Assembly (NCBI GenBank): GCA_902511005.1
Contig: CABXDN010000008.1
Coordinates: 1 to 47,905, forward strand
DNA length: 47,905 nucleotides
Reading direction: 5' to 3'
Origin: an uncultured Candidatus Poseidoniales archaeon
Lineage (GTDB): Archaea; Thermoplasmatota; Poseidoniia; Poseidoniales; Thalassarchaeaceae
Each line of letters starts with the position of its first letter. Positions within the stretch are counted from its first letter, which is position 1. Positions 2 to 7,055 of the stretch are shown piece by piece. The notes under the pieces are model-generated. The model searched no databases, was not told the DNA's origin, and saw only the letters and a program-made list of their open reading frames with translations. A program made the translations under genes and the position numbers.

Positions 2-490
2 GTTGATGATATACCTTTACAGGATGATAGCTCCAATGTTGATGACAGTGGACCTTCAGTTGTTTTAGGCCAAAGCAGTGCAATCTTTGGAGCGATAATA
101 TTGTTCGCTATGGTATTGGTTCTAGTCGGTACGGCTGCAGTAAGATCTCCCAAGTCACGATTAGATTCCATAATAATGAAACAAGATGTTGAAGCAGATG
201 AACTATTGACACTTCTTTCTAGATCAAAAATGGTTCAAATTATTCATACATTGCATTCAGAAGAAAATCCAATACGATTTACAGAATTAAAAAATAGAGT
301 TGATACCTCTTCTACCACACTAACAAGAAGACTGGGCGAATTAGAGGACCATAATCTAGTAGAAAGAACAGATTATGAGACTGTACCTCCGACAGTTGTG
401 TACAAATTGACTGATTCCGGTGCATCTCTCCTTCCTAGTTTAGAGACATTTTTTGAATGGGTTCTCAATGACACAAATGAAACTGAATAA
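2..490 (+). CDS. Membrane-anchored HxlR-type winged-helix regulator, C-terminal part
   Basis: The frame is open from base 2, so the gene begins left of the window; 162 residues are visible. The first ~28 are acidic and Ser-rich and probably belong to an outer domain. They are followed by a hydrophobic segment (about residues 26-48) and then a winged helix-turn-helix. The HTH has the HxlR-family pattern: an RFTELK stretch, the helix pair TTLTRRLGELEDHNLVERTDY, a wing reading VPPTVVYKLTDSG, and a closing FFEWV. HxlR proteins are normally soluble DNA-binding regulators, so the membrane anchor is unusual and implies a sensor that reads the outside or the membrane state. Ligand and targets are unknown. 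The HTH call is firm; the function is inference. Confidence 0.8.
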   Translation, partial: VDDIPLQDDSSNVDDSGPSVVLGQSSAIFGAIILFAMVLVLVGTAAVRSPKSRLDSIIMKQDVEADELLTLLSRSKMVQIIHTLHSEENPIRFTELKNRVDTSSTTLTRRLGELEDHNLVERTDYETVPPTVVYKLTDSGASLLPSLETFFEWVLNDTNETE

Positions 491-589
491 ATGTCATTGT
501 TTCACCCCTGAAAGCAAAGTCAGCAGCTGCTTTACAGTTCTAGTTTTACCTTTACGAATATCTTCCAAATACAGTGTAGATATCTCCTT

Positions 590-614
590 CAGTAAGAGAA
601 AAATCTCCTTACTG
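590..614 (+). other. Stem-loop directly left of the tRNA fragment
   Basis: CAGTAAGAGA pairs with TCTCCTTACTG through one bulged C around an AAAA loop. It lies five bases before the tRNA-derived repeat at 620. It could be a terminator for the upstream gene or an integrase-arm or recombination structure. There is no long T run after it, so the terminator reading is weak. Confidence 0.4.
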
Positions 615-619
615 CAGGT

Positions 620-645
620 CTTCGGTTCAAGTCCGGGAGCGCGGA
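620..645 (+). repeat. tRNA 3'-end fragment, left copy (candidate att site)
   Basis: This 26-base stretch matches 3539-3564 at 25 positions in the same orientation. It folds as the T arm (TTCGG stem, TTCAAGT loop, CCGGG stem) followed by the acceptor 3' strand AGCGCGG and an A discriminator; CCA happens to follow. The matching 5' acceptor strand CCGCGCT is not found upstream, so this is a fragment and not a tRNA gene. Position 72 = G (hence C1) with A73 is characteristic of archaeal tRNA-Tyr. Repeated tRNA 3' ends are the usual scars of site-specific integration. Confidence 0.7.
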
Positions 646-670
646 CCAATTACACAAAAACTAAGATAAA

Positions 671-680
671 GTTTATTTGG
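671..680 (+). promoter_or_regulatory. Candidate TATA box for the 703 gene
   Basis: GTTTATTTGG lies 22-31 bases before the ATG at 703, the spacing expected for an archaeal TATA box driving a leaderless transcript. No Shine-Dalgarno sequence precedes the ATG. The promoter is inside the tRNA-bounded cassette, so the cassette could carry its own transcription start. Confidence 0.35.
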
Positions 681-702
681 GATTATCTCTGGGTTAACTA
701 TT

Positions 703-1809
703 ATGCAGTCCTCTTCGAAAGAAGCCTCGTGGATATCTGAACACCTAAAGGAACTGGCACAGAAGCCAGTACTATCAGAATTAAGCATGGGCGTCCTTCG
801 TGAGAAATACTTCCTTAGGCCGCACTCAGACATATCCAAAACTCAGTTTGATGATTTTAAGCTCTCCAAGCTTTACAAAACAAGTTCTGTACGAATATCT
901 AAACATCTTCAAGGCAACCCTCACATATTAATCAGAGGTGAAAAAAGAGGCAAGACCTATCGGCATAAGGAAAGTAGACCAATCTTTACTGACCAAATGA
1001 TTGCCAAAATAATCCCGGCTATTCTTCTTCCTATTCGTGATGAGATATCTTGGAATCAACTATATTATCTAACTAAGAATTGGGCTCAATTACTGCATGA
1101 AAGCTATGAAACTCATCCTGACTTTTTAGATCTTTTAGAGGACCCAGAAAAAGCGGCAAAATTCTCTACTCCGGTAATTTCCCTGGACATGGAAACCCTA
1201 TTACCAACCCTGATTGATGGCAAAAAAAACATTCAATTAGCCCTAGAAATCGATATTAATGAAACAATGACATACAGAAAAAATTTCCCATCAGAACTTA
1301 AACAATGGGTTTCCGATGCTTATTCCGATGAATGGTGGAAAAAGAGTTCATCCAATATCCAATCAATAATGAAAAAAGAAGGGAAAGTAGGCTCCGGTAG
1401 TAAGCGCGGGACATGGTTGCATACTAAACACAAATCTTCTATTGACAGTATTTTTAGTTACTTTATCGAAGGATCCTCATTAGAAAAGGCGACGAATAAT
1501 TTCAAGGATGCGATTAACCTTATCGATAAGGAATCTCAAAAACTACGTATAATTAAGGAAATTAATACTTACATGGCTAAACTCGATGTTCTTCTATTGG
1601 ATTTGTTTTCTCAACTTGAATCGGAACACCACCAATACTCAAGCGACAGATCTTCAGATTTCAGACATCTCGAGGATATATCTGACCGCTTTAATCTGGC
1701 AAAAAAAAGAATTCGGAGATTTACTCTTGAACTTCGTGCCATGTCTATCCGCGAAATAAAAACTGAGCCTTTTGCTACGGAATTACATATTAACCCCGAA
1801 ACGGATTAA
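703..1809 (+). CDS. Unrecognised cassette protein with winged-helix-like N-terminus
   Basis: I do not recognise this 368-residue protein. Residues about 25-90 look like a winged helix: helical stretches, then a beta wing reading ILIRGEKRGKTYRH. The middle (about 100-260) is mixed and rich in Trp and Lys, with a basic patch around KVGSGSKRGTWLHTKHK. The rest (about 250-350) is long helix with heptad-like spacing. There is no signal peptide or membrane segment, so it is probably cytoplasmic. It starts 57 bases after the left tRNA fragment and reads toward the structured stretch and nuclease-like gene that follow. A nucleic-acid-binding role is inference from the wing and basic patch. The start is supported by a TATA box and not by an RBS. 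Confidence 0.8.
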   Translation: MQSSSKEASWISEHLKELAQKPVLSELSMGVLREKYFLRPHSDISKTQFDDFKLSKLYKTSSVRISKHLQGNPHILIRGEKRGKTYRHKESRPIFTDQMIAKIIPAILLPIRDEISWNQLYYLTKNWAQLLHESYETHPDFLDLLEDPEKAAKFSTPVISLDMETLLPTLIDGKKNIQLALEIDINETMTYRKNFPSELKQWVSDAYSDEWWKKSSSNIQSIMKKEGKVGSGSKRGTWLHTKHKSSIDSIFSYFIEGSSLEKATNNFKDAINLIDKESQKLRIIKEINTYMAKLDVLLLDLFSQLESEHHQYSSDRSSDFRHLEDISDRFNLAKKRIRRFTLELRAMSIREIKTEPFATELHINPETD

Positions 1810-1814
1810 CCGAG

Positions 1815-2020
1815 AGATAATATAAGAAGACGCGGTCCGAGGGCTGCCCATATGAGATATGGGTCACGTCGGCATCACCGGCGTTGAGGCAAGAATCCAG
1901 TTTGTGTGCTGACGATATTGGGTGGACGAAGATCCGCTTGACTAGGCGCCTTACTGGAGGAAAAGAGCTGCTGAACACAGTTCTTCGTCGGCTCCGTCGG
2001 CGGTATGGAAGTCAGGTCTT
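1815..2020 (+). ncRNA. Candidate structured RNA between the two cassette genes
   Basis: By hand count 1831-2030 is 56% G+C, clearly above the flanking genes, and it contains no convincing ORF. Local pairings include CCCATAT/ATATGGG around GAG (1848-1864), CGTCGGCA (1867-1874) with TGCTGACG (1907-1914, one G-U), GTCC (1835-1838) with GGAC (1924-1927), GAAC-ACA-GTTC (1973-1983) inside GAGC/GCTC, and a CCG/CGG pair near the end. In AT-rich archaea such GC-rich islands usually mark functional RNA. It does not show the conserved cores of RNase P RNA or SRP RNA that I would expect. A long structured leader of the 2036 gene is the alternative. Confidence 0.4.
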
Positions 2021-2035
2021 TCGAGGTGAAAACCC

Positions 2036-3457
2036 ATGATAGAAGACAACAATAATAAATCCGCACACGTTGGTGAAAGTGGCGGAGAAAAAGTGCCAAC
2101 AAGTCCCATTAATGGGACTAATAAACTAACAATGAATGAAAGTATGAACATGATCGCTGCAACGGGATGGTACCTAACTGATGGAAACATCAGGGTAGAA
2201 CTACCTGAACAAATTGTTGAGGATATAATGTCCCGCGTTAATTCCGACGCTCAAGTTGGAATGAGCATGGCTGCAGATTTTTTCAGCAAGGCGTGGTCAA
2301 TGGGGCAGAGCTTCGGCTCAATTGCTACATTAGACCAATTCCAACATGTCGTTGATGACGGTACCAAGAAATTGGCTGAAGAACGAGACGAGTTGGCGGA
2401 GCAAGCGAAAATTGTACATGATGAAATGGTTAAAGCATTGACTGAAGCCCATACAAAGGGCAACCAAGATTCTGCTGAATTCCTCGCAAAAGCATTGTCA
2501 CAGCTTGAAGCTGTGATGAAGGCTGCGACAAATCCCAACAACACTGAGAGTTTACCTTTTGTAACAGCTCAGGTGATGCTTGAGAAATTGACAGAGGCAT
2601 TCAACAACTTCGAGTTAATGCGTAAGAAGGATGTTTCTAGTATGAATGATGCGCTCATTAAGAGCCTTCAATCATTCCACGAATCACACAACAGCTTTGT
2701 TGTTGCATTCGAAAAGGCGAATGATGCCAAGGACGAGGCTCTTTGGAAAGCTCTCGGTTTGAAGGATAAGTTGGATGAAGCGGAAGATAAATCGACCGCT
2801 AAAGGCCTAAAATTTGAAGACGCTGTCTCAGAGCATTTAACTGCTATTGCGGGACATTTTAGCGATAAATTTGCCGATGTTGGAACTGAGACCGATGGAA
2901 TTGGTAATTCCAAAGTCGGCGACCATCTTTCTACTGTAATGCATGGTACCAAGGTAGTTGGAAAAATAGTCTTCGAAGATAAGGCCGGTCAAACTTTGAT
3001 CGGTGGTGCTTCGGGAATTGTATCCCAACTTAATAAAGCCATGACAAGTTATGGAGCCGATGCAGGGATTGGAATAGTAAATTCCAAGCGTGCACCGGCA
3101 CGATTGAAAAATGCTGGATATCTTAGAACCAGTTCGAATACACATCTAGTGTGCGTGGACTGGGAAGAGAACGATTTTACGATTTTAGAAATTTTATATC
3201 CAATCGTTCGCGAAATCGTAGCTATCCAGAACGCAAATAATGCTGGGGATGACTCCAGTATTGACAGCAATGCTGTCGTTGATATCTGCGAGGAGGCATT
3301 GTCCGACCTTAAGGAGCTCAACAAGCTTAAGCTAAACCTTCGTAACACTGTTGCGAATGGGGCGCTTAATGCTGCTTCAGCGTTGGAGGTGGCTCAGAAC
3401 AAGTTTCAAGCCACCTTCCAGCGCCTAATAACGCTACATAGAGAGGTCTCTGAGTAG
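2036..3457 (+). CDS. Coiled-coil protein with PD-(D/E)xK nuclease-like domain
   Basis: This is a 473-residue soluble protein. Residues ~1-110 are mixed, ~115-260 are long charged helix (coiled coil), ~258-400 form an alpha/beta domain, and the rest is helical. The alpha/beta domain carries E261 in a GLKFED helix, D296 in KVGD and E314-x-K316 in a VVGKIVFEDK strand. This is the order of the PD-(D/E)xK nuclease fold and resembles the DUF2130-type arrangement in which a long coiled coil precedes GKI.WE.K. Later strands (ADAGIGIVNS, THLVCVDW) fit the fold core. The start has GAGGTGA six bases upstream of the ATG. As the last gene before the right tRNA fragment, it would be the effector of the cassette if this is a defence or conflict system. 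Activity is untested inference. Confidence 0.8.
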   Translation: MIEDNNNKSAHVGESGGEKVPTSPINGTNKLTMNESMNMIAATGWYLTDGNIRVELPEQIVEDIMSRVNSDAQVGMSMAADFFSKAWSMGQSFGSIATLDQFQHVVDDGTKKLAEERDELAEQAKIVHDEMVKALTEAHTKGNQDSAEFLAKALSQLEAVMKAATNPNNTESLPFVTAQVMLEKLTEAFNNFELMRKKDVSSMNDALIKSLQSFHESHNSFVVAFEKANDAKDEALWKALGLKDKLDEAEDKSTAKGLKFEDAVSEHLTAIAGHFSDKFADVGTETDGIGNSKVGDHLSTVMHGTKVVGKIVFEDKAGQTLIGGASGIVSQLNKAMTSYGADAGIGIVNSKRAPARLKNAGYLRTSSNTHLVCVDWEENDFTILEILYPIVREIVAIQNANNAGDDSSIDSNAVVDICEEALSDLKELNKLKLNLRNTVANGALNAASALEVAQNKFQATFQRLITLHREVSE

Positions 3458-3538
3458 TGACTCTAGGCCTTACTTCCATACCACTGACGGGACCGGCCTT
3501 GCCCAAATTTATCTCTAAGAAATTTATCGGGTACCGAA

Positions 3539-3564
3539 CTTCGGTTCAAGTCCGAGAGCGCGGA
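3539..3564 (+). repeat. tRNA 3'-end fragment, right copy (candidate att site)
   Basis: This copy differs from 620-645 at one base (CCGAG instead of CCGGG in the T stem, which improves pairing). It has the same T loop TTCAAGT, acceptor strand AGCGCGG and A73. No 5' tRNA half lies in front of it. The preceding bases make an inverted repeat, ACCGAA-C-TTCGGT at 3533-3545, overlapping the T stem. Together the two copies bound 2.9 kb carrying the two cassette genes. Confidence 0.7.
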
Positions 3565-3984
3565 GTAAAAAATACAAATTAAGAAAATTAAATTTCAAAA
3601 TTGTACGAAAAGATACAAGTATATTTAAGTTAAAAATACAAAAGTAAACAGGCATTCATTAATGAATCATTACGACGTATAACAATGCACGCAGGACATA
3701 TACTAACAATACTAATTGGCTTCTACGCTTCTTTCGCTATTACAGTGATGAGTGTTACGCCATTATTGGGTTGAATAACTAAAACTCAGTAATTTTACAA
3801 TATACAGTATCTAAGTTAGAAAAATTACGTTAATCGATGATTTTCTATTTTTCTAAATTCAATGCTTACAAGCTACGGATATTGTATTAACGAATGACTT
3901 CAATAGCCTCCGCTTTCAGAAATATCAATCGATGGGAGGCGTTCAGAATGCGGTTGCCCGTTGGTTATCTTGGTTGAATGAGTG
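3565..3984. other. AT-rich gap right of the cassette
   Basis: This 420-base stretch is AT-rich and has no long ORF. It contains a TATA-like run (TATATTTAAG, about 3621), a six-codon ORF at 3662, the 29-residue ORF at 3685-3774, and a weak inverted repeat GCCTCC/GGAGGC (3906-3911 with 3935-3940) that could end transcription of the minus-strand gene at 3987. Nothing else is recognised. Confidence 0.5.
3685..3774 (+). CDS. Possible 29-residue hydrophobic peptide
   Basis: An ATG opens 29 codons ending in TGA. The peptide is almost entirely hydrophobic, with one membrane-spanning stretch (ILTILIGFYASFAITVM) and no charged residues beyond His. A TATA-like sequence lies about 60 bases upstream; there is no good RBS. 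It could be a small membrane or toxin-type peptide linked to the island edge, or chance. Coding is unproven. Confidence 0.25.
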   Translation: MHAGHILTILIGFYASFAITVMSVTPLLG

Positions 3985-4484: not shown

Positions 4485-4584
4485 AGGGTAGGCACTGAAA
4501 GGGCGGACTGTAACCTCATTAATTCAGTAATTACTAACTCTTGGGTCTAAGCAGATACCCATTGATTCGTCTTTTAATCGATTA
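4485..4584 (+). repeat. 100-base direct repeat, left copy
   Basis: Aligned without gaps to 6019-6118 it matches at 74 of 100 positions, with 40 of 49 in the right half (4536-4584). The right half can form a short hairpin, TGGGT (4542-4546) with ACCCA (4557-4561), enclosing AAGCAG; the loop AAGCAG and the following CCCATTGATT are conserved in both copies. It abuts the 3' end of the minus-strand operon. It may be an element end, an attachment site or a duplicated non-coding RNA or terminator. Confidence 0.6.
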
Positions 4585-4606
4585 TGCTAAGCTTCGATTA
4601 TCGAGT

Positions 4607-6018: not shown

Positions 6019-6118
6019 AGGGTAGCCTCTGAAAAGGCGGATAGATAGCCGATGAGTTCAGTCTCAACAAACTAATGGGCTCAAGCAGAAACCCATTGAT
6101 TTGTCTGTTAATCGCTTA
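6019..6118 (+). repeat. 100-base direct repeat, right copy
   Basis: This is the partner of 4485-4584, in the same orientation. Its hairpin is ATGGG (6075-6079) with CCCAT (6092-6096). The stem is kept while loop-side bases change, which is mild support for a selected RNA or DNA structure. It ends 42 bases before the small membrane protein at 6161. The 320-base gap 5840-6160 holds this repeat and the palindrome; the rest shows nothing I can name. Confidence 0.6.
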
Positions 6119-6160
6119 ATCCGTACTTAGATTCATAATACCCTACTTTAGCGTCAGTCT

Positions 6161-6400: not shown

Positions 6401-6470
6401 TCGTAATCAAGGTCTTGGATATAGACTCATAAAGGGATGGCAAGTCGGCGACTCGCTACGAGGGATGAAT

Positions 6471-7055
6471 ATGGGAGTCACAAAGTACGTACGTTCGGCT
6501 TGGAAGAGTCCAAAGCAAAGCATGGAACCTCGTCATAGAACCGGTAGAATGGCTGTATGGCGCCACGAACCAGTGTTTCAGCGAATCGATAAACCTACTC
6601 GTATTGATGCAGCTCGTCGTGTTGGATACCGTGCAAAGCAAGGTGTAGTAATCTGCAGAACACGTGTTCGCCGTGGTGGACTACGTAAGGGTGTAGTAAA
6701 CATGAAGCGTAAACCTTCAAAGTCAGGTGTAACAAAAATTACTATGGCTAAGTCAATTCAAAGAATCGCAGAAGAGCGTGTTTCTCGAAGATATCCAAAT
6801 CTTAGAGTTCTAAACTCATATTGGGTTGGAGAAGATGGAAAGAACAAATTTTTCGAAGTTATTCTATTAGATCCTAATCATCCAGTCGTTAAAGCGGATA
6901 GTCAATGGTCTTGGGTTGCAGATAATCATCACAAAGGTCGAGCTATGCGCGGTATGACAAGTGCTGGAAAGCGCGGTCGTGGTCTGTACAACAAAGGTAA
7001 GGGTGCAGAGAAACTTCGCCCAAGCTTGAAGGCTAACAAAAACCGTGGTAAATAA
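6471..7055 (+). CDS. rpl15e: Ribosomal protein L15e (large subunit)
   Basis: This is the archaeal/eukaryotic-specific large-subunit protein L15e, which binds 23S rRNA. Diagnostic stretches are TKYVRSAWKSP at the N-terminus, RIDAARRVGYRAKQG, the basic RTRVRRGGLRKG, then RRYPNLRVLNSYWVGEDG, EVILLDPNHP and the C-terminal RGMTSAGKRGRGL. Its 194 residues match the usual length. I chose the ATG at 6471 because GAGGG (6460-6464) lies six bases before it; an in-frame ATG at 6465 would touch the RBS. The next gene starts 28 bases on. Strongly basic throughout, as expected. Confidence 0.97.
   Translation: MGVTKYVRSAWKSPKQSMEPRHRTGRMAVWRHEPVFQRIDKPTRIDAARRVGYRAKQGVVICRTRVRRGGLRKGVVNMKRKPSKSGVTKITMAKSIQRIAEERVSRRYPNLRVLNSYWVGEDGKNKFFEVILLDPNHPVVKADSQWSWVADNHHKGRAMRGMTSAGKRGRGLYNKGKGAEKLRPSLKANKNRGK

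Follow-up and report, generated by a model that had tools for sequence, protein, structure and literature searches.

The window, i.e. the whole stretch of DNA that was analysed (47,905 nucleotides), is contig C8, taken from its first base, of the metagenome-assembled Poseidoniales genome G000 (1.30 Mb in 35 contigs, 72% complete). Near its left end, a 368-aa ORF, a GC-rich non-coding stretch and a 473-aa ORF follow each other between two directly repeated tRNA-Tyr 3' ends (Table 1). The initial annotation had given the same two ORFs with a GC-rich intergene, and both were present as described.

Table 1. Features at and around the unit 620-3564 of the window.
Positions	Strand	Feature	Basis
2-490	+	3' end of the E2 gene (in G010, a membrane protein of 934 aa that has an HxlR-like domain)	95.7% aa identity to L044; HxlR PF01638, 7.7e-15
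480-619	+	conserved end of E2, arm beside the left copy	87-93% identity to element ends in G045, G008, G064
620-645	+	left att-like copy of the tRNA-Tyr 3' end, CCA following	repeat and pattern searches
703-1809	+	368-aa orphan protein	ORF list; N-terminal part winged-helix-like by eye, C-terminal part helical
1810-2035	+	non-coding stretch, GC-rich; either a small RNA or a structured leader to the nuclease gene	54% GC, no coding signal, fold z
1989-2019	+	31-bp inverted repeat flanking the nuclease gene, left arm	
2036-3457	+	coiled-coil protein of 473 aa, its nuclease domain PD-(D/E)XK-like (E261, D296, E314-x-K316)	alignments with five relatives
3465-3495	-	31-bp inverted repeat, right arm	
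3539-3564	+	right att-like copy of the tRNA-Tyr 3' end, degenerate and lacking CCA	repeat and pattern searches
3565-3795	+	right flank, right side of the empty site	95% identity to the right-hand neighbour of the single G010 copy
6465-7055	+	rpl15e, conserved right border of the hotspot	

The direct repeats and the intact tRNA-Tyr gene

The two copies of the direct repeat, D2, are 2,919 bp apart from start to start, and about 1.5e-6 pairs of this kind are expected by chance in 8 kb. Each copy holds the 3' third of a tRNA-Tyr, i.e. the T-stem, T-loop, acceptor strand and discriminator base. The identity of 25 out of 26 bases claimed previously was real, but the copies differ further, as the right one has GTA where the left one has CCA. 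Both D2 cores deviated from the clean inverted repeat of the relatives, and each of the two att copies is degenerate.

When the genome was searched with D2 as a pattern, besides the two copies in the window one intact gene was recovered, an intron-bearing tRNA-Tyr at G000:C16:22072-22172 (RF00005, 56.4 bits), which matches the earlier assignment of the fragments to tRNA-Tyr. This gene is missed by ARAGORN, which found no tRNA in the window either. Contig C16 ends within an ORF, of which it holds 702 codons, and the last 162 codons open the window. The two parts form one 934-aa gene on one contig of the sister genome G010, and the mapping of C16 and C8 to G010 left about 209 bp missing between them. 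Due to this single gene spanning both parts, the intact tRNA-Tyr would be situated about 4.7 kb left of the window, the adjacency of C16 and C8 being taken from the synteny with G010 and not from the assembly. This is in accordance with the initial annotation, which had expected an intact tRNA further left.

The element between the intact gene and the left copy, E2, was observed to have a conserved end at 480-645 (about 165 bp) with 87-93% identity to the element ends of other genera (G045, G064), whereas L15e is just 73-78% identical. This end is a common recombination arm that was either recently spread or is strongly constrained. Inside the E2 of G000, the element end was also found partly repeated over 68 bp (L004:10278-10345, on C16), directly after a 234-aa gene that is absent there from G010. 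E2 itself is composite.

The empty site and the two arrays

In G010, a single tRNA-Tyr copy was found where the window has two, and the 2,919 bp between them were absent. The left and right flanks of the single copy corresponded to the sequences left of 620 and right of 3564, respectively, both with an identity of about 95%. An empty site in a relative had been proposed as a check, and that of G010 is precise. The reverse case was also detected: a 7.9 kb element of G010, located between the tRNA-Tyr and the next unit, was missing in G000. The missing 2,919 bp in G010 and the missing 7.9 kb in G000 therefore constitute two separate presence/absence differences bounded by tRNA-Tyr copies.

The array of G000 was determined to consist of ftsZ, tRNA-Tyr, E2, a copy, the cassette of the 368-aa and 473-aa genes, a copy, a variable stretch and rpl15e, and that of G010 of ftsZ, tRNA-Tyr, the integrase element E1, a copy, E2, a copy, a variable stretch and rpl15e. 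Several elements are thus lined up at one tRNA gene, as the suggestion of tandem insertions had implied, and the exact absence of the cassette from the sister genome indicates that the spot collects small mobile gene packages. In the variable stretch of the window, a 115-bp direct repeat (71-74%) at 4485-4599 and 6019-6133 surrounds three small reverse-strand ORFs before rpl15e. It is absent from G010 and may represent the ends of another inserted unit.

An assembly chimera joined at the tRNA-Tyr repeats is conceivable in principle, as the data come from a single metagenome-assembled genome and repeats are classic misassembly points. The longest exact run common to both D2 copies was only about 16 bases, the two flanks match G010, and equivalent arrays were also assembled in other genomes, which makes such a chimera extremely improbable.

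We infer that the difference between G000 and G010 arose by gain and not by loss. Zero relatives of the 368-aa protein were found among the 318 other genomes of the order, and a gain in the G000 lineage is therefore simpler than a loss. An ancestral cassette that G010 lost through excision or recombination between the repeats is unlikely; the direct repeats would permit such a loss and the diverged copies suggest some age, but a unit lost by excision would still be of a mobile type. The reading of both cassette genes as host genes conserved in place was ruled out, since they are absent from relatives. The genes were not fixed in all relatives and the fragments were not unrelated to a tRNA, these being the two points set for testing beforehand.

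The integration hotspot in Poseidoniales

The tRNA-Tyr and rpl15e were mapped in 49 genomes, being collinear on one contig in 31, split between contigs in 12 and otherwise arranged in 6. The gap between the two genes in the 31 collinear genomes ranged from 83 bp to 13 kb; 13 of these genomes had a gap of 250 bp or less, 11 one of 251-800 bp and 7 one of 2.2-13 kb. The locus of G001, with a gap of 101 bp, was fully empty. The ftsZ/tRNA-Tyr/rpl15e locus is an integration hotspot of Poseidoniales which is often empty and at times has 0.6-13 kb inside. The contigs of G004, G009, G011, G022, G029, G030 and G041 begin or end only a few bases away from the 3' end of the tRNA, as would be expected if strains vary there.

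The displaced copies had a different left arm and, where they were cleanest, the inverted repeat CCGGACTT-CGGTTC-AAGTCCGG, a layout consistent with the core of a tyrosine recombinase. In G155, which belongs to another family, a 559-bp unit follows the tRNA-Tyr (L022:943-1600), and the repeat runs about 60 bp past the tRNA end, a pattern as after the insertion of two similar elements.

Integrases and units without an integrase

With the PF00589 profile no match was obtained in the unit 620-3564, in agreement with the earlier statement on the absence of an integrase from it, nor in the rest of the G000 array; the sole match in G000 was on contig C2. Of the tRNA-Tyr and the integrase that were to be sought to the left, only the former was thus located. 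Since G000 is incomplete (72%), a helper integrase may simply be missing.

The tRNA-adjacent element of G010 encodes a 445-aa PF00589 recombinase (1.8e-11), and relatives of this integrase, 81-89% identical, were found at the tRNA-Tyr in G008, G045 and G070. An integrase is accordingly present beside the tRNA-Tyr in four genomes of three genera. In the integrase element of G070 (L054:813-2898), PADLOC also recognised a type II DNA methyltransferase (3.6e-131), together with a candidate restriction enzyme of weak match (0.0016).

Short units without an integrase were detected in G002 (690 bp, one 164-aa gene) and in G149, a member of another family (576 bp, one gene), both with intact att cores. 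The G149 product was 89.5% identical to the product of the tRNA-Tyr-adjacent gene of G000, compared with 73% for FtsZ and about 69% for L15e. The comparison of these identities suggests movement of the gene between families, strong selection on the gene being the alternative.

The unit 620-3564 is probably an integrative cassette which, lacking an integrase, is non-autonomous and forms part of a tandem tRNA-Tyr array. This reading is directly supported by the tRNA origin of the repeats, the empty site, the absence of an integrase, the hotspot, the tRNA-linked integrases of the relatives and the other integrase-less units. The tandem array would begin at the intact tRNA-Tyr and end at rpl15e, with every element bearing a copy of the tRNA-Tyr T-arm/acceptor 3' end. 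As each element brings such an end, insertion at the tRNA would regenerate the tRNA, and the displaced copies would remain possible targets. A tyrosine recombinase acting in trans would have inserted the cassette into an internal attachment site of the array, and we infer that its mover was an integrase of relatives like G010, G008, G045 and G070, or one that was lost. The degenerate att copies, the incompleteness of G000 and the synteny-based adjacency of C16 and C8 count against the cassette reading, as do two further results. No att core or integrase was found in the scanned viral contigs, and neither was a circular form or attP; the right end of the cassette has its core in common with the integrase elements and lacks their conserved 140-bp arm.

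A decayed and now immobile remnant of a larger autonomous element, from which an internal deletion removed the integrase, is a less likely alternative. It would fit the integrase elements at the same tRNA in sister genomes and the degeneration of both att copies. The interior of the cassette, however, showed neither DNA similarity to any integrase element nor an integrase remnant, and in G002 and G149 there are again short units that lack an integrase and have intact cores.

Significance and comparison with known elements

Poseidoniales are abundant uncultured marine archaea, the gene exchange of which is poorly known. The present hotspot is a precise one, with known borders, an identified integrase family, att cores and natural empty and filled sites, at which small integrase-less gene packages pile up. 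Screening of the hotspot across metagenomes can be expected to bring up many unknown accessory genes, with defence genes probably among them.

In the tDNA islands collected by Islander (PMC4383910), an intact tRNA is situated at one end and a displaced 3' fragment of the same orientation at the other; they use a T-arm attachment site and tyrosine integrases, and tandem arrays occur. The intact tRNA-Tyr with the same-orientation fragment pair at 620/3539 (C16 being placed through the synteny with G010) and the empty sites of G010 and G001 are similar. In contrast to those islands, the unit 620-3564 has no integrase of its own and occupies an internal copy instead of adjoining the intact tRNA; owing to the lacking integrase it falls outside the Islander definition. 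The additive flexible genomic islands of Ca. Methylopumilus (PMC10872708), rich in unknown genes, are preceded by repeats of the last 20 nt of tRNA-Lys. Common to both systems are the tandem units marked by a tRNA 3' end, the variable content (here in G000, G010, G002 and the gaps of the 31 genomes) and the streamlined aquatic hosts. Methylopumilus are bacteria and the tRNA is tRNA-Lys, whereas here the hosts are archaea, the tRNA-Tyr bears an intron, the empty site is exact and the integrase family is identified. The unit 620-3564 probably works like the tDNA islands and the additive genomic islands (PMC4383910, PMC10872708).

The tycheposons of Prochlorococcus, as cited in PMC10872708 and PMC11389934, are cargo elements of 4-200 kb at tRNA genes with tyrosine recombinases. 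The unit resembles them, as far as these citations describe them, in having cargo at a tRNA gene of a marine microbe; compared by recombinase and size, it differs in carrying no recombinase and in being below 4-200 kb. The Charybdis elements of Poseidoniales (PMC12324425) are about 4.6 kb in size, have a structural module with the double-Greek-key Gp3 and are in some cases located beside tRNA genes, and the integrated ones carry an integrase. The unit 620-3564 is likewise small, tRNA-linked and from the same order, but it has 2.9 kb, no integrase and no evident structural genes.

The cassette products, the non-coding stretch and the question of defence

No credible match of the 368-aa protein was obtained with the profile libraries and the PDB sequences, and nothing was found in the viral contigs scanned for it. 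The AF2 model from one-sequence input had a pLDDT of 36.5 and was not usable. A CARF match by PADLOC (0.0035) was regarded as spurious noise.

Six relatives of the 473-aa protein, with 20-25% identity over the alignments, were found among 194 other genomes. The scan of 85,000 species resulted in six nuclease relatives, most or all within the same order, the named records being Poseidoniales MAGs or labelled Euryarchaeota. E261, D296, E314 and K316 were invariant across six aligned sequences. The order of the motifs, E...GD...ExK, corresponds to that of PD-(D/E)XK nucleases; one relative scored just above the cut-off of Mrr_cat (PF04471), and two matched PDDEXK_15 (PF24608) below the cut-off. 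Unlike these families, the 473-aa protein itself gave no match with the nuclease profiles and has a long helical/coiled-coil N-terminal part. Its model was of low confidence, with a pLDDT of 47.5, and the top fold match, BamHI (E 0.04), was weak and not significant. The protein is a candidate PD-(D/E)XK nuclease by its sequence motifs, backed mostly via distant relatives; the nuclease-like reading of the initial annotation is upheld to this extent. PADLOC gave nothing with the 473-aa protein, no members of the family were found in the scanned viral contigs, and neither cassette ORF had a credible match in PHROG. A TssA match was taken as noise.

The non-coding stretch had a GC content of 54%, compared with 35-41% in six other non-ORF stretches, and no coding signal in any frame. 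The plus strand folded better, with a weak z of just -0.7 to -1.8. No Rfam family matched, and homologues usable for covariation were found in none of 195 genomes. As the stretch stops at the start codon of the nuclease gene, a separate RNA and a structured leader are equally likely. Three candidates were rejected: a mir-182 match in Rfam (E 0.2) was taken as noise, a 32-bp match in G097 falls within a subtilase ORF and is in all likelihood due to chance, and an open frame of 72 codons (1821-2036), which runs up to the start codon of the nuclease gene, failed on codon usage as a small coupled gene.

The right arm of the 31-bp inverted repeat starts 8 bp past the nuclease stop. The repeat was reached by 0 of 100 and 1 of 100 shuffles under two scorings, and was not found elsewhere in the genome. 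In a transcript 28 of the 31 positions would be paired, counting G-U (-46 kcal/mol). The arms could pair in the transcript, serve as paired regulator sites or delimit an inner mobile unit.

The two genes and the structured stretch had been proposed as a new defence or conflict module (regulator, RNA and nuclease). The compact unit at a hotspot, the nuclease motifs, the methyltransferase and weak restriction-enzyme match of the G070 element at the same tRNA, and a nuclease relative that follows a GHKL ATPase gene speak for an antiviral or conflict function. The proposal was not supported, as the combination co-occurs in no second genome, the RNA signal is weak, no credible PADLOC match was obtained and several of the nuclease relatives occur singly among ordinary genes; such a module is improbable. 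A defence role of the cassette is plausible by neighbourhood only, and the action of its cargo (a possible DNA-binding protein, a PD-(D/E)XK nuclease and a structured leader) in defence is speculative, the nuclease cassette being only a candidate for it. Still more doubtful is the wider picture in which ftsZ/tRNA-Tyr/rpl15e would be an integron-like collector of integrase-less one- or two-gene cassettes, each tipped with a 3' end of tRNA-Tyr, inserted and excised in trans by co-resident integrases and crossing families, with the 2.9 kb cassette as a new nuclease conflict module with a structured RNA or leader.

Neither the 368-aa gene nor the RNA stretch was found beside the nuclease relatives. 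The relatives at L064, L065 and L076 are single genes among ordinary genes, and the one at L066 is downstream of the GHKL ATPase gene. The relative at L069:9000-10400 (G113) is broken by frame shifts and is possibly a pseudogene or affected by sequencing errors. That of L067 is situated within a stretch with a T7-like RNA polymerase. This single-subunit polymerase is encoded on a Poseidoniales chromosome by a 1,368-aa ORF (L067:11757-15863; G140:C9, 175 kb contig, JASLKG010000009) with matches to PF00940 (8.8e-31) and PHROG 414 (1.3e-69) and with inserted HMG boxes (PF00505, 1.2e-11). Of the 319 genomes of the order, 21 have PF00940, compared with 0 of 14 control genomes. Some of these cases may be binned viral contigs, and the polymerase of L067 likely belongs to an integrated virus or element.
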